Origin: a virus | Virus record (IMG/VR): IMGVR_UViG_3300042867_001289 | Span: 62,001 to 126,000 of that record | Length of the DNA stretch: 64,000 nucleotides | Direction: 5' to 3' (one strand) | Shown here: positions 8,853-34,588 of the stretch, in pieces | Layout of the letters: each line of letters begins with the position of its first letter | Position numbering within the stretch: position 1 is the stretch's first letter | Made by a program: the position numbers and the translations under genes | The notes under the pieces: generated by a model | The model's input: the letters and a program-made list of their open reading frames with translations, nothing else | What the model was told of the DNA's origin: nothing | The model's database searches: none

Positions 8853-9788
8853 TCAAAAAGCGACATCCACCGAGGTGCTATCACCCCAGTCGACAACGCC
8901 GGTCCTACTCAGATTCACTAAAGACGAAGCTCCGAAAGCCGCATACCATATGTTGCTCGAATTTTCTGCAATCACATAGGTGGGAGCGTCCCCGTCGGCA
9001 ACAGCAATAATTTCAATTTCTGATGAATACGGTTCAAATCTTATCAACTGGTCATTGATATCAGAGGTGATCCACAGATAGGTTCCGTCTGAATCCACAG
9101 AATATGATCGGGCTGTAATCGGTATTGTATCTACAAGTAGATTGTTATATGTATCAATTTTGTAAATCGCAAAACCAGCTATAACCCAAAGATATCCAAA
9201 ATCGTAAACACCAGGGACGTCTTGAATGTATATCTCAGACAGTGGGATTGTGGCATATATTTCAAGGGAAACAGGATCGAACTTCAAAACTTCTTTAGAA
9301 GCAGTATCAATAGTCCAAATCGAATCATCGACACCTATAACCTTGCTTATACTGCGTAAAACGTAATCGTTATCCGGTCCAAAATCGAATAGCCAGGGGT
9401 CATCAATAACAAAAGTCGAAGGATTCACTCGGATCAAACTGTTGCCTCGTGAGACCCATATGTCACCGTTTGCAAAATCCACATTCCGTGGCTGTATCCC
9501 ATTAGTAGTCAGAAAACTTTCATCGGACAGATTTGTCTCTGGGTCAATCCTAAACAACCCACCATCGTTATAGCCAAAACAAGCAACCCAAATATAACCA
9601 AATTCGTCAACAGTGATATCAACCGGACCCTCGCCTACAGCTATGGTATCTAAAATCGTATTTGAAACAGGATCAACCCTAGAAACCGAATTATCAAAGT
9701 ATTGGGTAACCCATATAGACCCCGATGTAAAAACGCACTGAAAGGGTATTTCACCAAGATTGATTCGTTGCGTTTCCTCGTAAGCCAT
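8853..9788 (-). CDS. Vgb/YVTN-type beta-propeller protein
   Basis: A 311-residue protein made of repeated units of about 42 residues with the pattern G-x-I/L-W-V-x(n)-V-x-R/K-I-D-P-x-T/S-N (for example S-G-S-I-W-V-T-Q-Y and S-R-V-D-P-V-S-N, then G-Y-I-W-V-A and F-R-I-D-P-E-T-N), the hallmark of virginiamycin-lyase-like and YVTN propellers. No lyase catalytic set is evident, so it is more likely a carbohydrate- or protein-binding virion component. A related propeller is embedded in the 21778-24615 product. The last 12 residues (V-D-W-G-D-S-T-S-V-D-V-A) look like a truncated PKD domain. Confidence 0.75.
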   Translation of the reverse strand: MAYEETQRINLGEIPFQCVFTSGSIWVTQYFDNSVSRVDPVSNTILDTIAVGEGPVDITVDEFGYIWVACFGYNDGGLFRIDPETNLSDESFLTTNGIQPRNVDFANGDIWVSRGNSLIRVNPSTFVIDDPWLFDFGPDNDYVLRSISKVIGVDDSIWTIDTASKEVLKFDPVSLEIYATIPLSEIYIQDVPGVYDFGYLWVIAGFAIYKIDTYNNLLVDTIPITARSYSVDSDGTYLWITSDINDQLIRFEPYSSEIEIIAVADGDAPTYVIAENSSNIWYAAFGASSLVNLSRTGVVDWGDSTSVDVAF

Positions 9789-9812: not shown

Positions 9813-10796
9813 TTAACCGTTCTCTTCAAGAACCCAGACTTCAAAATCCTGAATACTCAAATTAGCTAAAGCGGAAAGATCTTTCTGGTCCCACCTAGAA
9901 TCGGGTTCAAGCATCGTGGAATTGTGTCCACCAGAGTCAACAATCATGATCCCTGGCCCCTGATAACAATCCATCACAGCATTCGCCTGAGGATTAGTTT
10001 TTCTGCCAAAACCGCTATCTGTTAAACGGGTTCGTGCCGATTCTTTCAAACGTAATACAGCCCCCATAGGCGGAGCGTCAACAGCAGAACTTTTGCCATC
10101 GGATCCCTTAGCAGGCCAAATAAACTCCGATGATGCGGCCACGACCCCCATGCTCGCACGTTGCACCCACCCAGCGAGCACAAGATCGTCATAGCGAAGC
10201 GTAAGCTCCGCTAGCGACTGCCGGGCAACCGAACACCCTTCAGCCTCATACGAGCCTTCTAGGAGGGAATGCTGGGTGACCTTAGCCGCCTGAGTACAGG
10301 CATTGCCTCTGTCATAAAACTCACCGGCCTCAGTAATCGTCATAGATGACAGATCGTAAACATGGAGTTTATGATCGCTGTAATCCTGCATCGGATTACC
10401 CTGGATCATCATCCTCGGATCGTATTTGAACATCTTCCCATAAGGTGCGGCCCATCCGGTTCCGATCCAACATTTATTTACACCATAACCTGTTGATACC
10501 AGGTATTTGCGATCCGTTAGCTTGGCAAGATTTAGCGGATAGCCATCGACTACACCATTAACTTTAGGTTTAGTGCTTCCCGTAAATATTGATATACCTT
10601 TAGACGTACTATCAGTAGCGGCCAAATGGCCGATCATTAAAGACGATAAAGGGTGCCTAGTTTTTGGGATAGTAGTAAACGCTTTATCATCATCCGGGTG
10701 CCAGGGTTTAGCGGGCAACGATGGGGTCGCAGGATAATTCCAACGTTTCCAAACCCAAACATTATTTACAAAAATATCCCACAAACCCATTTTCAT
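9813..10796 (-). CDS. Secreted-type WPAKGSDG-domain protein (adhesin-like)
   Basis: A 327-residue protein whose C-terminal 120 residues (W-P-A-K-G-S-D-G, then G-A-V-L-R-L-K-E-S-A-R, G-I-M-I-V-D-S-G-G-H and D-S-R-W-D-Q-K-D-L, ending F-E-V-W) resemble a widespread domain of bacterial extracellular proteins with an R-L-K ... Y-G-x-x-x-D-x-G ... R-W pattern. The same domain occurs within the 1934-residue protein (about residues 390-740; 32150-31090), so the two are paralogues. Function is not established; carbohydrate binding or cleavage is a guess. No signal peptide. Good ribosome site (GAGGG). Confidence 0.6.
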   Translation of the reverse strand: MKMGLWDIFVNNVWVWKRWNYPATPSLPAKPWHPDDDKAFTTIPKTRHPLSSLMIGHLAATDSTSKGISIFTGSTKPKVNGVVDGYPLNLAKLTDRKYLVSTGYGVNKCWIGTGWAAPYGKMFKYDPRMMIQGNPMQDYSDHKLHVYDLSSMTITEAGEFYDRGNACTQAAKVTQHSLLEGSYEAEGCSVARQSLAELTLRYDDLVLAGWVQRASMGVVAASSEFIWPAKGSDGKSSAVDAPPMGAVLRLKESARTRLTDSGFGRKTNPQANAVMDCYQGPGIMIVDSGGHNSTMLEPDSRWDQKDLSALANLSIQDFEVWVLEENG

Positions 10797-12332: not shown

Positions 12333-12598
12333 AGTTGCCCTTCTCCTTGCAGTGTGAGTATTGCAGCGTCTAGGCCGTCAGTTATAGCTAACTTTACAGC
12401 ATTGATTGTTGTAGCTTCAGTTAGTCTGGAACTAATCTCGTCATGCATAGCCTGAGCCGCAATTACCTCTGGGGATGGTCTTATTTCCGGTTCTGGATCT
12501 GCTGCCCGCTGCGTAAGAAAAGCCGCAGAAGGTGTGACAAGCACCCATGTGACACCATCGTCCGAGTGCCATTCGCCATTTGTATCTGTACGTTCCAT
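12329..12598 (-). CDS. Hypothetical small protein between fibre and endolysin
   Basis: An 89-residue protein: a short beta segment with G-V-T-W-V-L-V-T near residue 15, then a long helix with many Ala, Glu and Thr. Its ATG shares one base with the stop of the collagen-like fibre gene and its stop overlaps the endolysin start, so it belongs to the fibre-lysis operon. No family recognised; a fibre-assembly chaperone would fit its position, by inference only. Confidence 0.55.
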   Translation of the reverse strand: MERTDTNGEWHSDDGVTWVLVTPSAAFLTQRAADPEPEIRPSPEVIAAQAMHDEISSRLTEATTINAVKLAITDGLDAAILTLQGEGQL

Positions 12599-15500
12599 TA
12601 TACAAGTCCTAACACTGTGATTTTTGATCCAATTGCAAAGTTATCTGCGCTTGGGAAAACCAATATTGAAGTAATCGCAGCAGTATCGTTTGCGAATATC
12701 AAAGCGTTCTGTGTGACCGCTACGCCGACCGCTGCTGTCGAAAGTTGGTGGACCCCCCTTTGAACGCCTGCCGTGTACTTCCCAACCCCACCTACAGTAA
12801 AATCGCACTCCCAGTAGCCTTGACGGTTTGTATTCGTGAGTGAACCAGGAAGCGAACCGTTGGAGTTAAAAGATGTGGTTGCGGCACTAGCGTTGATAAG
12901 ATACTCAGAGGCGGTTGACCCGTTAATTCTCATGCGCACGCCAACTGATGTGGCAGCAGAATCCCCTCGGCCTTGCAAGACAATCTTGATGTTTGAATAG
13001 CCGGTTGGATTGATATCAACACTTGCCGTGGCTGACGCAAACGTAGTTTTGCTAAGAACTTTGTAACCAGTGTTAAGAGTGTCCAAGATAGTTTTATCCG
13101 CAGCGCTCATCGAACCGGGGAGCGATGTGGTAGCAGAATTTATCGAAATATCAGGTGCGCTACTTGACCCACTGCTAACAATGGGTGCCGTTCCAGTAAC
13201 GCTCGTAATCGCTGTACTCCAGCTTTGATCACCACGCAAAAACGTGGTGGCAGATGCGGTACCGCTAGTGGCTAAGAAGTTTGTGCCGATCAAGTTAGGC
13301 ACATCGTTTGTGCGGCCCGGTCCAAGTACCATCACCGAGCCTGTTGTGGCGTGAACACGAGTAACTCTGGCGACGTTCTGAACCAAGTCTGTTGCAGCTG
13401 TTGGTCTGGTGTTTGTTAGCCCACCACCGGGTGCAACAAACATGCCGGAGTTGATTCCATAGCCAGTGGTGTTGAGGCCAGTGATAGTCCCCATAATCAT
13501 CACAAGGCCCGTACCATTGATGGCTAGGTCTTGCATAAGCAGGCCAATAGAGGGCATCTTTGCGCCTACTGAAGCGTCAGCGCCAGCAACTTCAATCACG
13601 GTAGTCGCACCGACGGTTCCAGTCGCATAAACCGGAGTTCCTTTAGTGAGCGCACCTCCTGATGTGTTCTTTACGCTGATCTGGAGTGGAACATCATCAG
13701 TCCATGTTGAGTCTCCACGCAAGAAGGTATCTGCGCTTGCTGTTCCTGTGCCAAGTAACGCTGGACTAAAGATGCCTGTTGTGGTTTGCGATGCGTCAAT
13801 CGGTCCAAGAGTGACATTCGGATCTGTAGGTGTCCCCGTAATCGCTATTGGTGAGGTGCCAGTCACCGACTGGACCGTGCCCGGATCGCCCTGAGCGCCT
13901 TCAGCGGCAATCAAAGTCCAATAAGTGCCTTCGACGGGGGTATCACCGGTGTTTCCACCATGAGCGTCTAGCCGGTACCACGTTTGACCTTCATAGGTTG
14001 CAATATCACCGATAGCGTATGATGCACCGGCAGAATACGCACCGGTGAAGTTCCAAAGAGCAGGAGCACCCGGATCACCCTGTGGACCAGGATCGCCCTG
14101 AGCACCCGGATCACCCTGTGGACCAGGATCGCCCTGAGCACCCGGATCACCCTGTGGACCAGGATCGCCCTGTGGACCAGGATCGCCCTGAGCACCCGGA
14201 TCACCCTGTGGACCAGGATCGCCCTGAGCACCCGGATCGCCCTGTGGACCCGGATCGCCCTGTGGACCCGGATCGCCTTGAGCACCCGGATCACCTTGAG
14301 CACCCGGATCGCCCTGTGGACCCGCAACATTGATTGAAAACGTAACTAGTTCAGCATTGCTGAAGGAGCCGTAACCCATGTTGCTAGGGTTGACGGTGAA
14401 GATAACGTAACTGCCGCCTTCTGTGTCGACAGTACCGCCAACACATGAAACAATTTCCCAGCTTGCATATGTCGAAGGGTCAGATTGACTCGTGACCAGT
14501 AAATAACCACCCTGAATACTCAAAAATAGTTCGTGTAGAGTCGTGTTTATCCCATATGGGTTGTCGTCTACCACTATCTGAGTTGCGCTTGAATACGGCA
14601 CCGTAACGAAACCGATGTGATCGTTGCCTGGGTCTCGGTCGCCAGCGTCAAGAGTGTTGATTGTGTAAGTCCAAGACAATCCACCTGGTGACCCCTGAGC
14701 TCCGGGGTCACCTTGAGCTCCGGGATCACCTGGGTCACCTTGAGCGCCAGGATCGCCCTGAGCACCGGGATCGCCCTGTGGACCCGGATCGCCCTGAGCA
14801 CCAACTAATGACGCTAACCACGCAGCCTCATTGCCAACGAACCCCTCTTCGACAGCAATTTCATATGCTGACAAGCCAGAAGTCCCCGTAAGATCAAAAG
14901 CGTCGATAACAGCGAAAGCTTCTTCAGCAGTACCAACATACAATCCGGCGTTTTCATAACTGAGCGTACCTGTGAATCCGGTATAAGTTCCAATCTGAAC
15001 TTCGGCACCAGTCAGCGAATGGGGTATAAAACTAGTAGCAGCTGCAAGCGGGTCAATAAACCCACCGAGACCAGCACCTTCATTAAAGCCAACCCACAAA
15101 GCTGGGGTAAACAAGCCAGCACCACCGCAGCCAACTGAAACTACTTGACCGCCAAGAACTTCAACAGGTTCAAAATCAACGTCATGGACAAGAGCGTAAA
15201 CGGTTGGCATTTCATCGCCGACAAGCATCAATAAAACATGCTGGTTGGGATCTGCTTCCCACAGTTCAGAGTTCACATACGACTGTGTAATCGTCCAGCG
15301 TGCTGGGCAATCGTAGACAGCCCACTCAGAGTCTTCTGCCAGTATCGCCGGAGCCGAGGGCAAGTACTGCATCAAATATATGACATCACCGGGTTCTGGA
15401 GTCAAGGAAGGGGTCATCAGGACAACAGCAGCAGCGAATGAACCTGTCCCATCAGCACCATCAGCACCATCAGCACCATCAGCACCAGGGGGCCCATCAG

Positions 15501-15615
15501 CGCCCGGCAAACCCACACGCGTAACCTCAACCTCAAACTGAGGCTCCTCCCAAACCTCAACAATATTAGGCAAAGGAACTATAACTTCAGAACGAAGCGA
15601 CTCATCACCACTCAT
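12598..15615 (-). CDS. Collagen-like tail fibre protein
   Basis: A 1005-residue fibre. Three collagen-type blocks are visible: G-A-D/G-P-P repeats near residues 34-56, a short (A/P)-Q-G-D-P-G block near 270-305, and 14 consecutive (A/P)-Q-G-D-P-G units encoded at 14070-14321. Between them are beta-rich segments, including a [12 protein letters not shown] chitin-binding-like module ([12 protein letters not shown], near 525-570), and a C-terminal domain typical of phage fibre tips. The Gly-X-Y runs should form a trimeric triple helix; the tip would bind the host surface. It overlaps the next fibre-region gene by 4 bases. Confidence 0.88.
14070..14321 (-). repeat. Tandem 18-bp repeats coding (A/P)QGDPG
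   Basis: About 14 head-to-tail 18-base units, alternating two variants that encode P-Q-G-D-P-G and A-Q-G-D-P-G, all inside the fibre gene. A shorter, related block lies at about 14690-14805. Near-identity between units suggests recent expansion by slippage or recombination, which keeps the reading frame because the unit is a multiple of three. Confidence 0.9.
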
Positions 15616-19375: not shown

Positions 19376-21778
19376 CTATGTGATGTTTGAACCATAAACA
19401 TAAGAACTACCGTATATGCCGGGATCGCCATAAGACTCTGATTCAAACACCTGCAAAGCCACTGAACGATGCTCAACACCATATCCGGCAGGTATGACTC
19501 GGCTTAACGCTTTCATAACCTGCAAAGAGGTTTCACCGACAGCTTTAACTCCAGGCGTTTCCTCAACTATGGTTTCCACCCTAATCTGCCATGGGTCGCC
19601 ACCGACACGGCGAACAATCCGCACCTGCTTATCGCCCCTAAGAACGCGTCTAACCGATTCGGCTAGAGCATCCTGTGTGCCGCCGCGTAACCCACTCACA
19701 GCAGTTTTTACTTGCCACCGCCAGTAATCGTAACTATTGGATTCGCTGTCATCGAATGATTCGATTTCACCCCAGCTGACAGCACCATCCCTGTTCCCGT
19801 TAGGGCTTGGCAATTCGTCGGGTTCGATTTCCCATTCATCCCAATTTTGCAATGGTTCTGGTACATCTGTAGTGAGTTCTTGGAAAGCGAGATTATCCCA
19901 TGCGGTAAAACCAGTTGAATTGTCTTCGATCTTAACGCCAACCAGAGTTCCGAGCCAATCCAAAAATTTTATGCAACAGATATCTGGATTAACAAGCTTT
20001 GATCTGATCTCGCCACTATCTAAAGAAACTTCATCTGGTGCTATGTATCTGAGCTCAGACCAGATTCTTTCAATTTGACCAGCAGTGATATAGAGAACAT
20101 TAATGAACTGACCTAATGGATACCTTGGTTCCACCTGCAACTCGTCCGCTTCAGTTATGTACGCAGGTAGGCGATCCCAGACTTCATAACTGAAAGAATT
20201 TTCGTATCTAAAACCAGGGACAGTTAATGCTGGTGCAGCAAAATAGATCGCATCGCCAGCTTCTTCTGCATCAATTTCAAAAGTTGTTCGAAGGATAGTT
20301 TCGCCATCAGGTGGCATCCTGTTGGGAGAATACAGCGACAACAACTGCCACTGATTTGGTTTAACTGAAATGAGCTCAGAAGTTTTTTCAACCTGACCAA
20401 AACGGGTAGCGGTAAAAATCATGTTTACCTCCACCCGCCTAGGTGCCCAAATCCAAATAAAGCTTCTCTGGTACCGGTTCATAAACCGCCGAGGAAGCAC
20501 ATACCGGGCGGAACCTAAAACAAACTTTTCACCATCTGAAATAACTCGCAGGCTATTAATATCATCATGGAGGAGCTTTGTGCGGCTTGCACCTAAAGAT
20601 GCATTACCGCCAACAATCTCCCAATTCCCGACACTTGAATCAAAAGAAAAATCATTGCCCTTATAAAGGTTATTATCCAATAATGTTGGGAACCAACAAT
20701 CCCCATTATCTTCTTCAACTATCAGCTTGCCAATACTCGGTGGTACCGGAACCAGAATGGTATCGGAATCAGATACGCTCCCGCCCCTATAAGACAAAAA
20801 GGAAACTGCTTCGAAATTACCTGAAGAATTAGCTTTGCCAGTAACTTCAACAACAACAATCCCATCAATATCACCAATATTGATTAGACCATTATTCCAA
20901 GGAACTTCAAGGCCATTAAGCCGTACCGTATCTATAGAGATTTCAAAAGGCCACGAGATCTGCAATCCAGCAGAATCCACCAACCCTTCGACCTCGGTAA
21001 GATAAGAAACCACTTCACCTAATGTTGCCGATTCAACAGACCAGTTAGCTTCAATGTCAGGAGCTTCAACAACGACCGCTTCGCAAACAAAAACTTCCGA
21101 ATCGTGGACTTCCCAATTAATACCCCACGAGAAGCTTTCATCAACTACAGGCGTTCGCAAGGTTGCGACTAAAGAAACAGCCCCAACCGGAGCCTCGGGA
21201 ACCTCAACGGTAGTGCCGAGTCTTACAGTTTCGCCAACAGTGAAACCAGACGAAGCCCCCTGGAAAGTTGCACTTGTGTACGTTGTCGGTAAAACCTCAG
21301 GGGTTTCATCAGAGAACGAACGGTAAAGGGAGACGAGAGGATCGCCAACGCGTGCACCGGCTACGTCAACCCATTCGAGGGTTGCCATAACGTATTCGGA
21401 AACACAATCAGAACAATCTCCAGCTAAAACAAATATCCCATTCCCACCGCTAACAATGATCGTTGAGACTGCTGAGTCTTCGTATTCTTCGGCATCGGTG
21501 ACGGTTAAGGTGGTGACATATATTCCAGGTCCAGCATAAATGTGCGTAATTGTTTCTAGGGAAGACGATGCTGTCCCATCGCCGAAATCCCAAAGATACG
21601 ATAGGGCTGATACGCCTGTTGACGTTGAACCATCAAACGCTACTGAAAGAGGCGAATCCCCATTCGAGACATCGGTAAGAATTACCGCTATTGGATCAGG
21701 ATGCACTGGCGGTGTTCCCGCAGAACCAAGGGTGTCTTCACCTCCGACTTCTGAAGATCCGACGTTAAAGATTCCCAT
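19376..21778 (-). CDS. Tail protein I-like baseplate protein with N-terminal PKD domain
   Basis: An 800-residue protein. Residues about 30-112 are a PKD domain (Y-L-W-D-F-G-D-G-T, then H-I-Y-A-G-P-G-I-Y-V-T-T-L-T-V-T-D). The middle is beta-rich. Residues about 560-800 match phage tail protein I (P2 gpI type): Y-P-L-G-Q-F-I-N-V-L-Y-I-T-A-G-Q-I-E-R-I-W, then I-R-S-K-L-V-N-P-D and F-L-D-W-L-G-T-L-V-G. Tail protein I sits at the baseplate rim and holds fibres. Adding a PKD adhesin module to it is unusual. TAATG overlap with the upstream esterase gene. Confidence 0.75.
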   Translation of the reverse strand: MGIFNVGSSEVGGEDTLGSAGTPPVHPDPIAVILTDVSNGDSPLSVAFDGSTSTGVSALSYLWDFGDGTASSSLETITHIYAGPGIYVTTLTVTDAEEYEDSAVSTIIVSGGNGIFVLAGDCSDCVSEYVMATLEWVDVAGARVGDPLVSLYRSFSDETPEVLPTTYTSATFQGASSGFTVGETVRLGTTVEVPEAPVGAVSLVATLRTPVVDESFSWGINWEVHDSEVFVCEAVVVEAPDIEANWSVESATLGEVVSYLTEVEGLVDSAGLQISWPFEISIDTVRLNGLEVPWNNGLINIGDIDGIVVVEVTGKANSSGNFEAVSFLSYRGGSVSDSDTILVPVPPSIGKLIVEEDNGDCWFPTLLDNNLYKGNDFSFDSSVGNWEIVGGNASLGASRTKLLHDDINSLRVISDGEKFVLGSARYVLPRRFMNRYQRSFIWIWAPRRVEVNMIFTATRFGQVEKTSELISVKPNQWQLLSLYSPNRMPPDGETILRTTFEIDAEEAGDAIYFAAPALTVPGFRYENSFSYEVWDRLPAYITEADELQVEPRYPLGQFINVLYITAGQIERIWSELRYIAPDEVSLDSGEIRSKLVNPDICCIKFLDWLGTLVGVKIEDNSTGFTAWDNLAFQELTTDVPEPLQNWDEWEIEPDELPSPNGNRDGAVSWGEIESFDDSESNSYDYWRWQVKTAVSGLRGGTQDALAESVRRVLRGDKQVRIVRRVGGDPWQIRVETIVEETPGVKAVGETSLQVMKALSRVIPAGYGVEHRSVALQVFESESYGDPGIYGSSYVYGSNIT

Positions 21779-24615
21779 TAGGGTCCTTCAACTTGCTGCA
21801 TCCAGTCAATGACATGCTGGCTTCCAACTGGTGCTGGTATTGGATTCGAGTTATATCGTTCAAGCATTGAATCGTGATCCGTCATCGTCATATACAAGCT
21901 CAAGAGTTCACTTTTATCTGCTGCAGCAAACGCATCAACAAGAGGATCTAGCTGATTATCAGCATTAAAAGATGGTACAAGTTCATCCCAGCGGCCATAA
22001 CAATAACCTATCGGCTTATCATTTGCTGCTACATACTCCTGGAGTCTTAAACCATCGTAATCGTAAGATGGTCCAGGCTGATTAGTCAGAATTTGCCATG
22101 CCAACTTCACAACGGGTATAGACGGGATTGGCTCCGTAGCAACTGCTCGTTCCATGTCTACAGGTCCTGCCCATGAAAAAGCGCCAAGAAAATCTGGATC
22201 TCCACCAGAATAAGTTAAATCTCGGTGGAAGGCTGATCCATCATCCGTAATATCTTTTGTCAACATTGAAGCTTTAGCTAAAAATCCTCCAGCAGAATAC
22301 CCGGTAGCGAATTTTCTTGTAGGGCTCAAATCGTAATCTGAACCGTCAGTTTCGACCCAACGCCCGCAAGCCTTATAATCTATGAGATCCTGTGGCCAAT
22401 GAACGGCAGGCGTAGCACCGGCAAGCTTCGCTAATCGGTAGCCGACGCATAGAACAGCGTAACCATTATTGATCAGATCCTGTTTGAAATCTTCGGGGAT
22501 ATCAGTAGTTTTTCCGCCAACGAAGAACCCAGAAAAACCCCATAGAATAGTCGGCCATCCACCTATAGGAGGCTCCCCGTTAGGGATATGCAAATCACCT
22601 TTAGCTGCAGAACCATTAACAGCAGGATCGCCGCCACCCATGTTGATATCAAAATAGCTCGTATACGGCGGCTGAGATATTTCAGGCGATGAAAGAAGCA
22701 CTTCGACAGAATTAGAAACCCACATATTAGTTCCATCCCAAACCATAGAGAGTGGGCTGCTTCGCATATCTATGGTTGAGGTAACACTATTTGTAGCCGG
22801 GTTAATTTTTGATATATCCCCAGATCCGTTATTGGCAACCCAGATGCTAGTGCCGTCATATGCCAGTCCGCGAGGCGATTTTCCAACAGGTATAGGATCT
22901 CCAACAACCAAGTTAGTGGCAGGGTCAATCTTTGAAACAGTATTAGAGCCGCTATTAGCAACCCAAATATATCCTGCAGCCGACAGGACCGCAAAAGGCC
23001 TAGAACCCTGTGGCATCAAAATTGTTGCTAATACGCTATTAGCCGATATGCCGCTAGTACCGATTTTATAAACACGATCACCCAAAGGTTCATTGTTATC
23101 ATTGGAGCACGCAACCCAAATATTTGTCCCCTGAGATACCATCCCCTTCGCCGTATAATTAGTGTTGTTTAGGACAATAACAGTTTGCGCCACAACATTA
23201 TTGGCTGGGCCAGTGGGCGTTATGCGAGTAATTTTTGTTCTAGGAACAGGCAAAGTCTTTATTGTCGTAGCCGATCCCGGATTCAGCAATGTTGACTGGC
23301 TAGTAGCCCAAATTGATCCCTGAGCATATAGAACTTCAGTTGGAAGATTCCCTACGTCTATCGTGGGGGTAGGATTGGTTGTACCACTAGGGTATGCTAC
23401 CGGAATCCCCGTGGTGGCAAGAATTCTCATTATCCCATTAGCTGAAGAGTTCGTTATCCAAAGATATTTTGATCCATCGTATGTAATTGATTTAGACCCA
23501 TACGCATTTGATGTTGTGGATACAGCTGAAGTCGCTATATCAATTTTTGAGAGTAAATTTACCCCATTATGAGTAGCGTAAATGGAAGGTGGTATAGCAG
23601 GTACTGACGTCGGATTGTTGATGTACAGTAAACTTCTCACACTCTCAGATACGGGGATATGAGATATTACGCCTGTAGTCCCATTTATTTTTGATACAAC
23701 ACTGTCAAATGGTACAATATTGCCGTTACTAGTTTTTCTTCCTTCTAGACTTAATAAGTTTTCTGTTACCCCATCCCATTCTGAATATTTTGGCTGGTTT
23801 ACTTGCGCTCCGATTCTTTTGTCGTAATAACCAATAGGAGTCATATCCTGATCGTATAAAAGGATATTTTTAAAATAAATAGGTGGGGCTAGAGCAGACG
23901 CCAAAGGGTAAGTATCAGTGTTGCAACCAAACTCAATGGTATCGAAGTCAGCTGCGCCTGGTGCAAATTGTTGCGTAATCTTAAATACACTATTTGCGTT
24001 AGCGTTAGGCGTTAATGGAATGGTCCATCCGGTAACAGTCACAAGATTTGTTGAACTTACAGAAATCTCTATCCGATACTTCCACAAAGCGGTTGTATAG
24101 ATAGCCCCATTGGACTGCACCGACATAGCTTTCTGAGTCGTTCCATCCATAATCGCCATACGCTGAGCATCGACACCCTTAGTAGGAATGAAGGCTTGGA
24201 CTATTCGTAAACCGAGCTTCCTGACACCACCATCATCAAGGGTGCCACCGGATCTAAATGTCAAAAAATCAAAGTTTGCAAGCGTTGGGTTTGCAGATAA
24301 TTGCATTTCAAAATACATAGAGTAAGGAGGATTTACGGTAATCAAATCAGGAAGTTTAGTAACTGAATCAATGGCACTAGTATCAAAATTTTCAAAACCT
24401 ATAGCGGACCGTTGACCAAGAAAGTTAGCAATATAAATACTTTTTTGCCTACTAGCCTCAGCTCCAGCAACCTGGGTTAAAGAATAAAAAAAATCGGGTT
24501 TAGTATCACAATAGGTGAATGGATTGTCGTTCACACCTCGATCACCAGGGCGAAGCTCGCCAGCACCAGGAGACCCTTTAGCATCCCACCCCGTCCACTT
24601 GAATATTAAAGACAT
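21778..24615 (-). CDS. Virion protein: lectin-like + beta-propeller + alpha/beta-hydrolase esterase
   Basis: A 945-residue multidomain protein. Residues about 1-280 are beta-sandwich, lectin-like. Residues about 330-640 are a YVTN-type propeller with repeats such as G-Y-I-W-V-A-N-S-G-S-N-T-V-S-K-I-D and S-I-W-V-A-N-N-G-S-G-D. Residues about 655-940 are an alpha/beta-hydrolase: oxyanion region W-G-F-S-G-F, nucleophile elbow G-Y-S-A-G-G near 771, Trp/Asp motif W-D-E-L-V-P and a late D-H-D near 911 that may supply the catalytic His. This suggests deacetylation or de-esterification of host surface polymer after binding. The substrate is unknown. Confidence 0.75.
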   Translation of the reverse strand: MSLIFKWTGWDAKGSPGAGELRPGDRGVNDNPFTYCDTKPDFFYSLTQVAGAEASRQKSIYIANFLGQRSAIGFENFDTSAIDSVTKLPDLITVNPPYSMYFEMQLSANPTLANFDFLTFRSGGTLDDGGVRKLGLRIVQAFIPTKGVDAQRMAIMDGTTQKAMSVQSNGAIYTTALWKYRIEISVSSTNLVTVTGWTIPLTPNANANSVFKITQQFAPGAADFDTIEFGCNTDTYPLASALAPPIYFKNILLYDQDMTPIGYYDKRIGAQVNQPKYSEWDGVTENLLSLEGRKTSNGNIVPFDSVVSKINGTTGVISHIPVSESVRSLLYINNPTSVPAIPPSIYATHNGVNLLSKIDIATSAVSTTSNAYGSKSITYDGSKYLWITNSSANGIMRILATTGIPVAYPSGTTNPTPTIDVGNLPTEVLYAQGSIWATSQSTLLNPGSATTIKTLPVPRTKITRITPTGPANNVVAQTVIVLNNTNYTAKGMVSQGTNIWVACSNDNNEPLGDRVYKIGTSGISANSVLATILMPQGSRPFAVLSAAGYIWVANSGSNTVSKIDPATNLVVGDPIPVGKSPRGLAYDGTSIWVANNGSGDISKINPATNSVTSTIDMRSSPLSMVWDGTNMWVSNSVEVLLSSPEISQPPYTSYFDINMGGGDPAVNGSAAKGDLHIPNGEPPIGGWPTILWGFSGFFVGGKTTDIPEDFKQDLINNGYAVLCVGYRLAKLAGATPAVHWPQDLIDYKACGRWVETDGSDYDLSPTRKFATGYSAGGFLAKASMLTKDITDDGSAFHRDLTYSGGDPDFLGAFSWAGPVDMERAVATEPIPSIPVVKLAWQILTNQPGPSYDYDGLRLQEYVAANDKPIGYCYGRWDELVPSFNADNQLDPLVDAFAAADKSELLSLYMTMTDHDSMLERYNSNPIPAPVGSQHVIDWMQQVEGP

Positions 24616-27509: not shown

Positions 27510-30500
27510 CTAATCGGTTAAGTAGCATCCAACAAAATTGAAAAAAGATACTTCCAAACCGTTAGGGATAACATTTTCGGTGCCCAACAGGTCAATCGAA
27601 ACAACCAAAATAAGCGGATAGTCCAAAGCGAACAGTGGCAAAGTCCCCGTATCTAAAGAAATGTCAACCCGCTGCCCGTTGGAGACTGCTGTGCCGTCAA
27701 GAACTGAGAACGAATACCGTTCAGACCAAACCTGAGATTTATAGGTTTTTGCACCATCCAAAAAATCACCATTTGAACGATATAAAGCAAAAGTTGCTTT
27801 AGCTGGAACATCCCCGTAATCGCTTTCATCTATTTGCAAAATAAGCGAAGCACCAATTTTCAATCTTCCAGAAACAGCACTTTCGGGGAAACGAACCTGC
27901 GTAGCAGCATAAAAACTTGAATTATCGATAGATGCAGCTTCAAACCACCCTGACCCAGGCGGCAGAGAAGCATTGCCAGGCGACCCATCAGGAACAGCAA
28001 CCTGGTATCCGACGTTGTTTTCTACCAGCTCGGTATACCAATCTTCATCCCAGTCAACGAACCTCCAGATGTTAGTCCCATTCCAGGCCTCAAGATTAGA
28101 TCCAACAAAACTCTGATAATCACCTCCGCACCCTAAAGCCGAAACTATCTCGGAAACTATTACCGATTCAACGATTGAAGCAGAAGCGCCTTCGTCGTCA
28201 TAAACGGTTAGGACCACACGATAGGTGCCGCCAGAAGACCAGGTTTTAGAAAGATCCGCCTGATCAGATGTTGTCCCATCACCAAAATCCCAAGAATGAG
28301 CCGTTATAGTCCCATCGTCATCATAAGAATTTGAGCCGATCAGACCGTAGGGGATACCGGCTACAGGTTCACCGACACGGTCAATCACCGGAACTGGTGG
28401 CTCGTTCACCACCATCGGATCTACAATCTCGATTACCGTAATAGCCTCATCCACACCTGAAGTCATTGAAACAATGTACGACCCGGCAGCATCATAAGAA
28501 TGCTCCAGCGGATCAGGATCGGTTACAACAGGAAAAGTTGTGAATCCGATAACTTCATCAACTTCAAAAGGATTTGAACCAATAGGTTCAATCGAAAAAT
28601 CTGGGGCAACCGAAACTAAACGAAAACCTGGTACCTGTACCGATCCTTGAAACGGGGTAACACGAATCGCAAAACTATCGGTGCGGACTTTTTGGGTGGG
28701 AGTAAAAGTCGCCGTAATCAGCCCATCCCATAAAGCGTTTATTATATAACCCTGCCCATAATCGGTTCCAAACTCCCCTAAACCTGACCAAACCCCAGGG
28801 ATCACACTTCCGTTAGGAAAGGAAATAACAGAAACCCCAAACCCGCCAGCCCTTAAACCGCTGCCGATCTCACCAAAATCAACTTCTAAAGATTCGACAA
28901 GAGCATTAGGTGCAGGGTACCCATAAGCCCGAAGATAAGAAGCCCCAAACAAGGTTTCGATGTCATCTTCAGCCCAACCTAAAACAACTTGCCGATACGG
29001 GTCGGGTCGCACAAACGCACCATCAGAATCAACAGTTGTTTCCCCTTCGGTCGCACCGCTAATCACAGTGACACGTTGAGAACTAACAGCTGAAGCCCCA
29101 TCGTCATCTCTGACAGTTAGCGTGACCGTATAGTACCCGGAAGTTGTCCACGCTTTAGTTGGCGACTCGGCTGTTGATCCTGTGCCATCATCAAAATCCC
29201 ACAGATACGAGACAACAGTTCCATCCGAATCGGTTGATACCGAATCTAATGTGACTGTCTCATTGACCAAAACGGATGAAGGAGCGCTAATAATTGAAAC
29301 GGGTGCCAGATTTATAGGGGAAATTATTATCGAATCTGTTTCTGTTGCTGTAGCACCGTCATCATCGGTGACTCTCAGGCTTACCGTATACGTTCCAGCG
29401 CTCAGATATGTGTAAACCGGATTTGCTTGAGCGGATACGCTTCCATCACCAAAAGTCCAAAGATAAGAACTGATTGTCCCATCAGGATCAGATGAACCCG
29501 CAGAAGAAAAAGTGACCGGAGTGCCCGCTATTCCCGTAGGCGGAACCGTAATTATTGCAATAGGTGGAAGATTCGGAGGCGGTTGGCTGCTAATAAAAAT
29601 TGATTGTGTTTTACTAGCGGTTTCCGCATCGTCATCAGTTACCGTTAACGTAACCAGATACGGCCCGTATTGGACTTTTTGGCTTACATTCCATGAGGTT
29701 GAGCGGCCAGCTAATTGGTTAAATTTTGTTAGTGTGATGCTGCCAAATGGTGGTATGTACAACGATCCGAGGGATAGACCCATGATCGCAGGACCGTTAC
29801 CGTCAGTGCCTGAGGATAGACAATAGTTATAGATGCTTTCTAGTTCATTTACACCAGAAACAGTTTGATCGTTGTTGCCATAATCGGCAATAGCCATATG
29901 TGAAATGTTTTTCGTTTTTGCCCACTGCCGAAAATCGGTTAAACCTGTAGGGTAACCTACGGTTCCGATCGAACCAGAACTAGCAGCCGTAACGTACTTG
30001 ATCAGCCCATAAAAGTCCCATTCGGCAAGAGGTTCCAAATACGAATCAGGGTTATACGCACCAAGCTGATCGCCTTCCCATGTCGTAGACTTAAAGATCG
30101 GCGCAAAAGAAATATTTGTTGCATTTATCTGATTCAAGATTTGACGGAACTTTACCTGAACAAGACGCCATTCTTCTATCGTAAACCAGTCTTCAACCCC
30201 TACATAATATTCTGGGTTATCCCAAACGCTTAACCATATCGGCTTATCAACATTTTTTAGACTAGTCAGCAAAGCCAAAATATTTGCGTCTTCAGAACCA
30301 GCTATCACACGGTCCACTGGAGGGAAATAAGAAAACCAGGGCATGCGACCAGCTGCGGTCGTCACAGAAGCCGCTGTGACCCGATCTGCGGGGTTCCACG
30401 CCGGTGTCAGCACCCCAGGAGCATTCGGCGACCCGGAGAGCCTATGGATACCCAGCGATTTACCTGCTTGGTTTTCGTATCTATCTTTAAAGAAGGCGTT

Positions 30501-33314
30501 AATACCTGATGGCACGCCAGTGTAAGTCGCACCCAGTCTGACTACACCATCAGGGGTGTTTCCAGGCAACGGAGGCACATCAGAGGCTTGTGTATAAATT
30601 TTTGATGGTGAAGCCGACGCCGAAGTTGTTCCATCACCAAAATCCCAAGAAACTGAAACAATGCTTCCATCAGTATCCGTTGATAGTGACGATGAAAAGT
30701 TTTGGGTTTCACCAATCCGACCTATGCTCGGCCCTGTGATATTAGCTACAGGTGGCACATTTGGGGCCACTGGAGCCGTTACAACGATTTCCGTGGACGC
30801 TATATCAAAAACACCTTCATCGTCAGTGATTGTCAACGTAACAACGTAGGTCCCTGCTTCAGTGTATGTATGTGAAGCAACCGCATTAGTATCTACGAAA
30901 CCATCACCAAAATTCCAGTAATACGAAGTAACAACACCGTCACCAGGGACAGAAGACGAAGCATCAAAATCAACAGCTACAGGCAACAACCCCGAAGTAG
31001 GAGCAGCTTCTATGACAGCTGTTGGTGGAAGGTTTTCCGAAGGCGGAGGAGCTATAGCAATTTTATGAGAATCAGGCTCACCCTGAATTGAAGAAATATC
31101 GACAACTTCAAAAAGGCTATAATCAAATGCGTTACCGACCTGGTCTTTAATATTATTTGGCCACGAGGGGTCATTCGGTGCAATAAGTTTTGGTTGCCCT
31201 CCCCGGTCGAATAGCATAGCCCCATATTTTTTTAGGGTTCTTGCTATGGCCCTGGCTGGTGCCGATCCAGACAGCACATCATTTTCATCAAAACTTGCAG
31301 AAAGACGAATTATTTGACCCGCTTTAAGACCTTCAGACAGCTGGCCATCAGACCCCCTTGCAGGCCATACGGCATCGCTCGGATCAAGCGCTTTATAATT
31401 TACAAGAGTAAAACCGAGCATATGCCCAAGGTCTTTATCTTCTTCACAATCTAACAGGTCCTGATAAGTAAAGAAAAATTGGGCTATAGGTATCTCCGCC
31501 ACACAAGCACCGTAAGCAAACTCCCCTAGCCCTGCACTCTGGTAACGAGAACCCGTAGGATAACCCGCATAGGGAGACCGTGGAAGATCATACGAATCCA
31601 GGTCCCACGTTACCGCATTCTCACAATCTGCACTAGAGCCACTATAACCAATCGCTTCGAATAGCTCTCGATTGTTTTCGTTCCAACATATGGCATGCCG
31701 ATCACCTGCTGCTTCACCGATCGAAGCGGTGTAGTTGCCGCCAAGCAAGAATGAGGATTTGTAGGCCCCCTGCTGTCTTAAAGCTGGGAAAAAAAGATGT
31801 TCGTTAATCGAATCATGGGTTTTAACATTTCGTTCACCCACGATCATCGCAGGAGTAGGAATCCAATAACGATAGTCCACTAGAGCCGGAGCGCTATCAG
31901 ACCAATACCCGACCTGCCAGCCCAGATCCCATTGCTGCGGAGTGGTAGGCTTAAATGCCATATGCCGGTAAAGGTTTCCTGGCTGAGCGGCCTGATAATT
32001 TCCTGTCGAAGTCATAATGGCTGCGCTGTCTGGATCGACAGGAAGCTCATCGACAGGCGTATTGAAAATAGAATCCCGCCAAAAAGTAGCCCTATTAGGC
32101 CGATGTGGGGGATAGTCCCATCTGGGCCCTTTAGGTCTCGCACCCGTACCCCTGACAGTAACAGTTCTAACCACAGAGATAGCATCACCATCATCCGTGG
32201 TAACGGTAAGCCTTATAGGGTACTGCCCTGCAATATTGTAAACCTTTGTTATCGAAAAAGAATCCTGGATAACACCAAAACCATCAGCCAAAAGCCCACT
32301 AGTCGGCAACAAAAGCAAACTAAGCAGACCATCATAAACAGCAGAACCAATAGGGGGAATCGAATTATAGGCAGTCGAAATATCCGCAGCACTCGAATAA
32401 CAAACAGCCGCCACACGGGCACCCGCATCATCATAAGCAGAACCTAAAGCATTCTCAAAAAAAGCATCATGAATGGCAGCAGCAGTCGCATCAAAACTAT
32501 TCGAAGAATAATTACTTATATTCAAAACAAGATTCTTATCACGAAGAAAACGGCGAGCTTTAAAATATGCCTCATAATTCTGCGGACTAGTAGCTATACT
32601 CCCAAAACTGTTTTGCACACGAAAATCTGCACCAAAAAAGTCCCAGCACCCATCAATCCACCAACTAGCAGGATCAACTCCAACAGTATTGAAAGTCCCA
32701 ACAGAAAGAACCGGAGCAAAAGCAATATTAATAGCACCAGAGGCATCTAAACGTGCTTTAAACCTCTGCTGAAAAGAACGCCAATTAGCAAGCGTATAAC
32801 CAGAACCGCTACTAGCGGTCTTTACCGTAGCCTCAGGTTGCGGCTCAACCGAAATCCATACAGGACCATCAAGATTCTTAAGACCCGCAATTATACTATC
32901 AAAATGCCCATCCCGTGCACCAGTAGCAGCAGCAGCCCAATTGTCGACCTTAAAAGAAACCCAAGGCAAACGAAACTTAGACAAAGCCTCAGTAGCGTCC
33001 GCAGACACGCTAAGACTATCGGCCCATTGGCGGTACAATCTTTCAACACCGACACGATCACCTGAAGGATCTTGCCAACGTGAACCAATATTGCTATCAG
33101 AGAATCCAATTCGCATCATCCCAGGACGGATATCGCCTGGGTAACTATCGGTTTGGCTATAAGCTTTATCTAAAGAAGTGCTATCTCCCCAATCGAGGAG
33201 ACGATTTAGCAAAACATTTGGGACCGAAGCCGAATAATTTGCGGTAACCGTCACAGTAAAAGGGGCATAACCGTAACTCTCAGAAACTGTTAAAGACGAA
33301 ATAACTGGTGCCAT
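27510..33314 (-). CDS. Giant multidomain adhesin: PKD repeats with two inserted barrel-like domains
   Basis: A 1934-residue protein. The N-terminal half of a PKD fold (L-L-D-W-G-D-S-T, residue 40) is interrupted by a glycoside-hydrolase-like barrel (about 55-340, with P-V-W-I-S-V-E-P-Q-P-E) before the PKD second half (Y-N-I-A-G-Q-Y-P-I-R-L-T-V). A W-P-A-R-G-S-D-G domain (about 390-740) and a whole PKD follow. A third PKD is likewise interrupted by a second barrel (about 910-1200, with P-I-W-L-S-V-W-D-N-P-E). Further PKDs near 1245, 1330 and 1640 surround a beta-sandwich region, and about 210 residues close the protein. Predicted role: long virion arm that binds or degrades host polysaccharide. 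It directly follows baseplate J. Enzyme activity is inference. Confidence 0.75.
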   Translation of the reverse strand: MAPVISSLTVSESYGYAPFTVTVTANYSASVPNVLLNRLLDWGDSTSLDKAYSQTDSYPGDIRPGMMRIGFSDSNIGSRWQDPSGDRVGVERLYRQWADSLSVSADATEALSKFRLPWVSFKVDNWAAAATGARDGHFDSIIAGLKNLDGPVWISVEPQPEATVKTASSGSGYTLANWRSFQQRFKARLDASGAINIAFAPVLSVGTFNTVGVDPASWWIDGCWDFFGADFRVQNSFGSIATSPQNYEAYFKARRFLRDKNLVLNISNYSSNSFDATAAAIHDAFFENALGSAYDDAGARVAAVCYSSAADISTAYNSIPPIGSAVYDGLLSLLLLPTSGLLADGFGVIQDSFSITKVYNIAGQYPIRLTVTTDDGDAISVVRTVTVRGTGARPKGPRWDYPPHRPNRATFWRDSIFNTPVDELPVDPDSAAIMTSTGNYQAAQPGNLYRHMAFKPTTPQQWDLGWQVGYWSDSAPALVDYRYWIPTPAMIVGERNVKTHDSINEHLFFPALRQQGAYKSSFLLGGNYTASIGEAAGDRHAICWNENNRELFEAIGYSGSSADCENAVTWDLDSYDLPRSPYAGYPTGSRYQSAGLGEFAYGACVAEIPIAQFFFTYQDLLDCEEDKDLGHMLGFTLVNYKALDPSDAVWPARGSDGQLSEGLKAGQIIRLSASFDENDVLSGSAPARAIARTLKKYGAMLFDRGGQPKLIAPNDPSWPNNIKDQVGNAFDYSLFEVVDISSIQGEPDSHKIAIAPPPSENLPPTAVIEAAPTSGLLPVAVDFDASSSVPGDGVVTSYYWNFGDGFVDTNAVASHTYTEAGTYVVTLTITDDEGVFDIASTEIVVTAPVAPNVPPVANITGPSIGRIGETQNFSSSLSTDTDGSIVSVSWDFGDGTTSASASPSKIYTQASDVPPLPGNTPDGVVRLGATYTGVPSGINAFFKDRYENQAGKSLGIHRLSGSPNAPGVLTPAWNPADRVTAASVTTAAGRMPWFSYFPPVDRVIAGSEDANILALLTSLKNVDKPIWLSVWDNPEYYVGVEDWFTIEEWRLVQVKFRQILNQINATNISFAPIFKSTTWEGDQLGAYNPDSYLEPLAEWDFYGLIKYVTAASSGSIGTVGYPTGLTDFRQWAKTKNISHMAIADYGNNDQTVSGVNELESIYNYCLSSGTDGNGPAIMGLSLGSLYIPPFGSITLTKFNQLAGRSTSWNVSQKVQYGPYLVTLTVTDDDAETASKTQSIFISSQPPPNLPPIAIITVPPTGIAGTPVTFSSAGSSDPDGTISSYLWTFGDGSVSAQANPVYTYLSAGTYTVSLRVTDDDGATATETDSIIISPINLAPVSIISAPSSVLVNETVTLDSVSTDSDGTVVSYLWDFDDGTGSTAESPTKAWTTSGYYTVTLTVRDDDGASAVSSQRVTVISGATEGETTVDSDGAFVRPDPYRQVVLGWAEDDIETLFGASYLRAYGYPAPNALVESLEVDFGEIGSGLRAGGFGVSVISFPNGSVIPGVWSGLGEFGTDYGQGYIINALWDGLITATFTPTQKVRTDSFAIRVTPFQGSVQVPGFRLVSVAPDFSIEPIGSNPFEVDEVIGFTTFPVVTDPDPLEHSYDAAGSYIVSMTSGVDEAITVIEIVDPMVVNEPPVPVIDRVGEPVAGIPYGLIGSNSYDDDGTITAHSWDFGDGTTSDQADLSKTWSSGGTYRVVLTVYDDEGASASIVESVIVSEIVSALGCGGDYQSFVGSNLEAWNGTNIWRFVDWDEDWYTELVENNVGYQVAVPDGSPGNASLPPGSGWFEAASIDNSSFYAATQVRFPESAVSGRLKIGASLILQIDESDYGDVPAKATFALYRSNGDFLDGAKTYKSQVWSERYSFSVLDGTAVSNGQRVDISLDTGTLPLFALDYPLILVVSIDLLGTENVIPNGLEVSFFNFVGCYLTD

Positions 33315-34588
33315 CAGCGAGCCGCCCGTGCAGTAACCGAAATAGTAGCGTCAGGTAAACTCCCATACCTTGTAAAAGCCAAATCGGCTCCCGAGACATC
33401 CAACGACCCAACAGGCCAGGCCCCACCATCAGTAACATAATCACCTGTTATATCCTCAGGCGCTATACCAACAATATGATTAGTAGTCGACACAACAATT
33501 GACAAATCCTCAACACGGGCAACACCAGCAACATTATTAATCGCAGTAACAACCTCGTTGTAAAAAATAGTATCCCCCCAAGACCAATAATTTGGAGTCA
33601 AATACTTACTCAACGCAGCATTCACCGAATCCGTCACAACACGCGTAGGATAACCCGCAGAACAAATAATTGTCACATTCACATCAATCGGCACAAGATG
33701 AGGTGGAACAATATCGATTTGCAACCCGGCTACAGCACGCTGCATCAAATCCGATGCCATCGCCCGAGATTTTTCCACCGAAAAAGAAGCACCATTCAGG
33801 CCGCACGCATAAATAGTAAGGTAACCATTCGCAGGCAAAGTTTCAGCAATAAGATCAGTCCTCGGCAAATCATTATACTTACCAACAACCGCTAACCGAC
33901 TATACGCTTTAACCCGATAAACATCAGGATATTGAGCCAACAAATACTGTTCAAACTGCTTAGGCAACACAAGAGCCTGGCTATAAGAACTCAACTTGCC
34001 TATAGCGCGAGCAAAATACTCTGCATCAGTTTCAGGGTCAGACCCTGCATTCAAATCCTCATCCAAAATAGCCGTATCAATCCAAGGAATAGCAGAAAGC
34101 ACCCGAATGAAAGTTCCGGCTTCCAACACAGGGTACCGCTCGTTAAGAATGCCTTGGACGGGAACAGTCATCGAAGTGTTCAACTTGCCAACAAAAACAT
34201 CTTCTGTAGATTCAAACACATATAGAATTGAGTCGGTTCCGCCTGCATCCAACCACCCAAACCTTGTCCCCTTTTTAAGGGTATGACCATCTTCGTCCGA
34301 TAAAGCCAATTCGAGTACAGCAGTCGGCCTCGCACCTGCTAGCCGTTCAATCTCGAACATCTGAAGAACCGCTTCAGTGATAGACGAAGTAGTCCTATTA
34401 AGCGCACCCAGCAACTCGCCACTAACCCCTGAGGCTGCTTGCAGCAAAGCATCCTCAATCGAACCCACAGTAGGAGTCCATTCCGGTAGCGCCGCTCGCG
34501 CATACGCTACCGACGCATCATAAATATCGCTTGGCTGTTGATCATAAATAGTCGGATCAACATATGGGCTAACATCAGGCGATGCCAT
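33314..34588 (-). CDS. Baseplate J-like protein
   Basis: A 424-residue protein matching the baseplate J family (P2 gpJ, T4 gp6 type): N-terminal helical region with A-S-G-V-S-G-E-L-L-G-A-L-N-R, the central G-T-R-F-G-W-L-D strand region, D-L-N-A-G-S-D-P-E-T-D-A-E-Y-F-A-R-A-I and V-A-G-V-A-R-V-E-D-L near the end. Baseplate J forms the wedge ring around the central hub that opens during sheath contraction. It lies between the gp25-like wedge gene and the giant adhesin, in the usual order. Confidence 0.9.
   Translation of the reverse strand: MASPDVSPYVDPTIYDQQPSDIYDASVAYARAALPEWTPTVGSIEDALLQAASGVSGELLGALNRTTSSITEAVLQMFEIERLAGARPTAVLELALSDEDGHTLKKGTRFGWLDAGGTDSILYVFESTEDVFVGKLNTSMTVPVQGILNERYPVLEAGTFIRVLSAIPWIDTAILDEDLNAGSDPETDAEYFARAIGKLSSYSQALVLPKQFEQYLLAQYPDVYRVKAYSRLAVVGKYNDLPRTDLIAETLPANGYLTIYACGLNGASFSVEKSRAMASDLMQRAVAGLQIDIVPPHLVPIDVNVTIICSAGYPTRVVTDSVNAALSKYLTPNYWSWGDTIFYNEVVTAINNVAGVARVEDLSIVVSTTNHIVGIAPEDITGDYVTDGGAWPVGSLDVSGADLAFTRYGSLPDATISVTARAAR

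Follow-up and report, generated by a model that had tools for sequence, protein, structure and literature searches.

The gene at positions 27,510 to 33,314 of the stretch analysed here raises the question of what large, enzyme-like domains do when they are housed inside the PKD domains of a putative phage adhesin. The window (64,000 nucleotides) lies within a 128-kb IMG/VR virus record. An original prediction described two glycoside-hydrolase-like barrels in the encoded 1934-aa protein, each inserted inside a PKD fold, and proposed that they may act on two polymers.

A contractile-tail operon

The 1934-aa protein is encoded by a single open frame, and its ATG and the stop codon of the gene before it overlap in the sequence TGATG. 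The upstream gene encodes baseplate J, which places the 1934-aa protein in a tail operon (Table 1). A tail sheath gene in the record marks the tail as contractile. The host of this contractile-tailed phage is probably an actinobacterium, since matches of the sheath and baseplate J proteins are mostly to Gordonia and Arthrobacter phages (few are to Brevibacterium phages and others, and all are below 60% identity). The gene that follows baseplate J in Gordonia phage Schomber encodes a minor tail protein of 390 aa. The sole PHROG match of the 1934-aa protein is Hoc-like, and a second virus, L004, has a counterpart that is about 82-83% identical over the whole protein.

We note a likely fibre gene in the window, 12598-15615(-), whose 1005-aa product contains collagen-like GXY repeats (Pfam Collagen, E 3e-21).

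Table 1 Features of the 1934-aa protein and its upstream neighbour in window coordinates
Feature	Position	Strand	Basis
Baseplate J (wedge) protein, directly upstream	33314..34588	(-)	PHROG baseplate wedge, E 3e-25; Arthrobacter and Gordonia phage homologues
1934-aa tail protein: four intact PKDs, two interrupted PKDs with GH26-like barrels	27510..33314	(-)	Open frame
PKD 1 (A) N-half, residues 1-57, WGDST motif, weak evidence	33144..33314	(-)	5.6 bits alone; 27.3 bits joined
Insert A, residues 58-345, predicted GH26-like (β/α)8 barrel, catalytic residues lost	32280..33143	(-)	AF2, Foldseek, homology to B
Codon Q159, acid/base Glu position of insert A	32838..32840	(-)	Alignments; column of the CtLic26A HE glutamate (chain residue 109)
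Codon N268, nucleophile Glu position of insert A	32511..32513	(-)	Alignments; column of CtLic26A chain residue E222
PKD 1 (A) C-half, residues 346-390	32145..32279	(-)	PKD_4 positions 51-82, 21.3 bits; own profile 42-82
Middle domain, residues 391-760	31035..32144	(-)	No Pfam match; C-terminal part like gene 9813-10796
Intact PKD, residues 763-847	30774..31028	(-)	Own profile 116.6 bits; PKD_4 above cut-off
Interrupted PKD B N-half, residues 854-911	30582..30755	(-)	PKD_4 1-59, 55.3 bits; own profile 1-57, 53.6 bits
Insert B, residues 912-1214, predicted GH26-like (β/α)8 barrel, catalytic residues lost	29673..30581	(-)	AF2, Foldseek, profile E 3e-16
Codon N1033, acid/base Glu position of insert B	30216..30218	(-)	Alignments
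Codon D1144, nucleophile Glu position of insert B	29883..29885	(-)	Alignments
Interrupted PKD B C-half, residues 1215-1243	29586..29672	(-)	Own profile 56-83, 18.2 bits; joined 87.8 bits
Intact PKD, residues 1250-1333	29316..29567	(-)	Own profile 118.4 bits
Intact PKD, residues 1337-1419	29058..29306	(-)	Own profile 111.1 bits
Intact PKD, residues 1639-1722	28149..28400	(-)	Own profile 116.6 bits

Interrupted PKD domains

PKD domains were located with Pfam PKD_4 and with our own profile, built from the intact PKDs of the 1934-aa protein, of its L004 relative and of gene 19376-21778. L005-L008, which match only PKD-containing regions, were not used in the analysis. Together the two models reveal four intact and two interrupted PKDs, the latter separated by inserts of about 288 (A) and 303 (B) residues.

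The split is clearest for B. On our own profile, residues 854-910 match positions 1-57 and residues 1215-1242 match positions 56-83, so the two halves follow one profile in order with an overlap of a residue or two at most. PKD_4, an independent model, splits the L004 record at the same place (1-59 / 59-80). Upon excision of insert B in silico, a single full-length PKD match of 87.8 bits is recovered, compared with 111-118 bits for the intact PKDs of the same protein. From these profile matches we regard it as firm that insert B interrupts a canonical PKD, as had been proposed.

The same proposal for insert A is more weakly supported. The C-half of PKD A is clear (PKD_4 positions 51-82, 21.3 bits, under the cut-off), unlike the N-half, whose WGDST-containing sequence scores just 5.6 bits alone. 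Joined, the two halves reach 27.3 bits over profile positions 9-82, which suggests that insert A is likewise nested in a PKD. The low score of the N-half, together with its low pLDDT in the AF2 model, would also fit an arrangement in which B alone is truly interrupted and the first 57 residues of the protein form an unrelated anchor domain. We consider this somewhat unlikely, given the joined match and the likeness of the N-side junctions of A and B (DWGDST...K.Y.Q and DFGDGT...K.Y.Q; shuffle p 0.006-0.02). Such partly accidental nesting concerns the architecture alone and fits any reading of function.

These N-side junctions agree with the claim that both inserts occupy the same loop, but the best joins do not. 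PKD A scores highest when its "KVY" strand is drawn from the C-side (27.3 versus 21.0 bits), and PKD B when its "KIY" strand is drawn from the N-side (87.8 versus 77.5 bits). On these joins the two insertion points lie some 9 profile positions from each other, that of A ahead of the "sKtYt" strand and that of B behind it.

A similar end is seen in gene 8853-9788(-), which encodes a propeller-like protein ending in VVDWGDSTSVDVAF, much like the end of the PKD A N-half, LLDWGDSTSLDKAY. Downstream of this truncated-looking WGDST end, no PKD C-half is found in any frame.

The inserts as GH26-type barrels

Direct family searches with both inserts in Pfam, PHROGs, NCBIfam and the PDB gave nothing significant, and the assignment to GH26 therefore needed relatives as stepping stones. 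Searching with an alignment of inserts A and B yielded a 345-aa protein in viral contig L022, Nocardioides/Nocardioidaceae proteins (L023-L027), and proteins from viral contigs L028, L031/L032, L035 and L036. A profile of five motif-intact relatives matches the GH26 lichenase CtLic26A (E 3e-9), and one relative matches Pfam Cellulase (E 2e-8). In turn, both inserts match the profile of motif-intact relatives (A, E 2.6e-27; B, E 3.3e-16). The two barrels, originally seen as clearly different, share just 26-30% identity, but they are unmistakably homologous (E 3e-19).

AF2 models of residues 1-395 and 846-1245 each contain an eight-stranded barrel. Their mean pLDDT is modest (63 for A and 56 for B), with better values in the barrel cores and poor ones in the PKD halves. 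Foldseek places GH26 at the top for both models, with TMt values against CtLic26A of up to 0.77 (A) and 0.71 (B). By predicted fold and by descent, both inserts are (β/α)8 barrels of GH26, a family of clan GH-A. The eight strands, the Foldseek matches and the relatives' profile thus bear out the glycoside-hydrolase-like character first proposed. Structure prediction, suggested as a check of the nested plan, returns barrels for the inserts; the PKD halves, mostly below pLDDT 50-60 in both models, form a low-confidence region for judging whether they pair.

No GH26 copy with intact catalytic residues was found elsewhere in the 128-kb record. Among the relatives, the L028 protein adjoins genes for terminase, head protease and major head protein, and the L035 protein lies amid DNA-metabolism genes. 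The L022 and L028 proteins have no significant Pfam match, and the L035 protein has no PHROG match.

Replacement of the catalytic residues

In our combined profile, the family's acid/base column coincides with E109 of the CtLic26A chain, which belongs to the HE pair, and the nucleophile column with E222; we take these two residues to be the catalytic pair of this enzyme. GH26 enzymes use a two-glutamate retaining mechanism and carry an HE motif (PMC6556568). In the inserts, Q159 (A) and N1033 (B) stand where strand 4 ends and the HE motif would supply the acid/base Glu; where strand 7 ends, N268 (A) and D1144 (B) occupy the position of the nucleophile Glu. The same four substituted letters are present in L004. 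Bacterial relatives, scored from 29 loci in 150 genomes sampled from the family to which the L023 genome belongs, have Glu at the acid/base position in 34 of 34 matches and at the nucleophile position in 33 of 33. Both catalytic Glu are also retained in the stand-alone phage relatives L028, L031, L035 and L036.

The losses extend beyond the catalytic pair. Erosion reaches the GH26 -1 subsite as well, where P158 (A) and D1032 (B) stand in for the His of the HE motif and, in A, R232 takes the place of the conserved Tyr that follows strand 6. Framework residues are kept (R-L/M-PW-x-S, WDFxG and the P of HEP), as are E161 (A) and E1035 (B), which are conserved with the motif-intact relatives. Because both Glu and the HE His, and in A the Tyr, are replaced, retaining glycosidase activity is very likely lost in both inserts.

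Selection and history

The inserts are kept under purifying selection rather than decaying. A Nei-Gojobori-type estimate from two sequences, the window and L004, gives dN/dS values of 0.31 for insert A, 0.19 for insert B and 0.24 for the whole protein, and insert B is 92% identical between the two viruses, compared with 83% for their whole proteins.

In our tree, A and B are sisters (support 95/94, and 94/94 without L026) on long branches that call for a long-branch warning, and the pair lies nearest the L031/L035/L036 phage clade. The simplest history is probably one capture followed by duplication; with such long branches, independent captures of A and B are a possible alternative. The two copies had been taken to imply a modular scheme. 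Since they probably go back to one capture and a later duplication (95/94), the nested pair is not clear independent evidence of such a cassette scheme.

Candidate function of the protein

We propose, as the reading with most support, that the 1934-aa protein is an adhesin of the tail fibre or attached to the baseplate, a virion location that we infer from its operon, with a PKD stalk and non-catalytic GH26 barrels that would hold a surface glycan. We judge this proposal evenly balanced between right and wrong. The PKD domains would form the stalk, two of them carrying a GH26-type barrel in a loop. An ancestral phage GH26 module may have been captured inside a PKD and then duplicated, with loss of both catalytic glutamates, and the resulting pseudo-glycosidase barrels may have been kept as glycan-binding, lectin-like modules. 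The tail would thereby hold surface polysaccharide without cutting it, and the nesting would anchor both ends of each barrel to the stalk. Such a conversion occurs in nature, as inactive GH18 proteins bind sugar (PMC3662789).

The neighbourhood is consistent with a tail that acts on polysaccharide. The 945-aa product of gene 21778-24615(-), in the tail region, ends in a BD-FAE esterase domain (E 1e-12) that carries the serine motif GYSAGG. The same protein contains a YNCE-like beta-propeller stretch, which scores below the cut-off.

Some points count against the lectin-like role. Erosion of the subsite residues may have abolished the sugar site that the barrels once had, so that any binding might take place elsewhere; a purely structural role would, moreover, give an identical sequence picture. 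This erosion makes a serious rival of the view that the barrels are dead, bind nothing and persist as large, stable units that space the fibre, give it shape or touch other tail proteins. The pattern of substitution, in which the catalytic Glu and the HE His are lost and the framework residues stay, fits this role, and folding constraint alone could account for the purifying selection. However, a 300-residue barrel is not required for spacing, a neighbouring gene has an esterase domain, and tail proteins encoded next to baseplate J commonly contact the host. On balance we consider a pure spacer unlikely.

Far more doubtful is that the inserts still cleave polysaccharide as two depolymerases with displaced residues (D1032 and D1144 in B; E157 or E161 in A). 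Insert B does have an Asp at the nucleophile position and D1032 beside the acid/base position, and E161 and E1035 are shared with motif-intact relatives. In contrast, A is without a carboxylate at the nucleophile position (N268), the acid/base positions are amides in both inserts, and these substitutions occur in no scored relative; PDB entry 6hpf, a GH26 mannanase, is described as an inactive E-to-Q mutant. For B alone, there is a small chance of altered chemistry via D1032 and D1144. The reading from which the analysis started, two independent enzymes on two polymers, was rejected as the lead, as the inserts are paralogues in which both catalytic Glu are replaced in both copies. Most likely they are pseudo-glycosidases that serve in glycan binding or as structural modules.

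A broader view would be that PKD loops of phage tail proteins are display sites for whole enzyme barrels, and that a polysaccharide-cutting module was here converted, twice per fibre, to a non-cutting receptor-binding one. We offer this switch from depolymerase to adhesin tentatively.

Relation to known proteins

The GH26 lichenase CtLic26A (2bv9, 2cip, 2vi0) has the fold and strand order of the inserts in common, with a full-length profile match via the motif-intact relatives. The inserts differ from it in the replacement of both catalytic Glu and of the HE His, and in being housed inside a PKD. Their closest sequence relatives, at about 19-29% identity, occur as stand-alone GH26-like proteins in Nocardioidaceae and in viral contigs L022, L028, L031, L035 and L036. 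The L028, L031, L035 and L036 modules open with a GD start that resembles the PGD/PGN of the window. Unlike the inserts, the stand-alone relatives have intact HEP and GExG-type motifs and lie outside PKD domains; no PKD was found in their viral records G004-G007.

Few sequences, to our knowledge, clearly document how an enzyme module became non-catalytic within a tail protein. Tandem PKDs and a proposed role in adhesion are shared with PKD/Ig-like phage adhesins such as T4 Hoc and the modular gut-phage adhesins, but the paper on the latter makes no mention of an inserted enzyme fold (PMC13370021). Chi-lectins such as TCLL, which are lectins with an inactive TIM barrel of GH18 (PMC3662789), follow a like principle, in that a glycosidase barrel devoid of catalysis binds sugar; they differ in being GH18, of plants or animals and stand-alone, and have no family relationship to the inserts.

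PKD phage adhesins, GH26 modules and pseudo-glycosidase lectins are thus each known, and we have not found their combination in INPHARED or in the open papers searched. By tblastn, INPHARED phages contain no match for insert A, insert B or the L022 relative (one query was approximate at its N-terminus). Among the open papers searched, no precedent was found for a phage protein that nests GH26 in a PKD or for a pseudo-glycosidase of phage origin. Within IMG/VR, the nested, doubly inactivated combination was found only in L003 (a 100% match) and L004. The original statement, that no description of such a nested phage protein was known, agrees with these searches.

Phage tails may cut surface sugars or simply hold them, and motif-intact stand-alone relatives in phages and soil bacteria make the states before and after such a change comparable. 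If, as the nested plan suggests, a loop of the PKD sandwich can accommodate a domain of 300 residues, it would be easier to see how tail proteins gain modules with the stalk unbroken. If the barrels have no ligand, the protein would be merely a curiosity of domain architecture.

Additional domains of the protein

A further PKD-like remnant is visible at residues 1581-1635 (window about 28410-28574), with a recognizable second half, HSYDAAGSYIVSM, a seemingly missing DFGDG loop and a dN/dS of 0.07. The middle domain also exists as a separate gene, 9813-10796(-), with which it shares a stretch around WPA[RK]GSDG (blastp E 4e-6). This common domain is without any Pfam match, and in the 1934-aa protein it is placed between both nested units.
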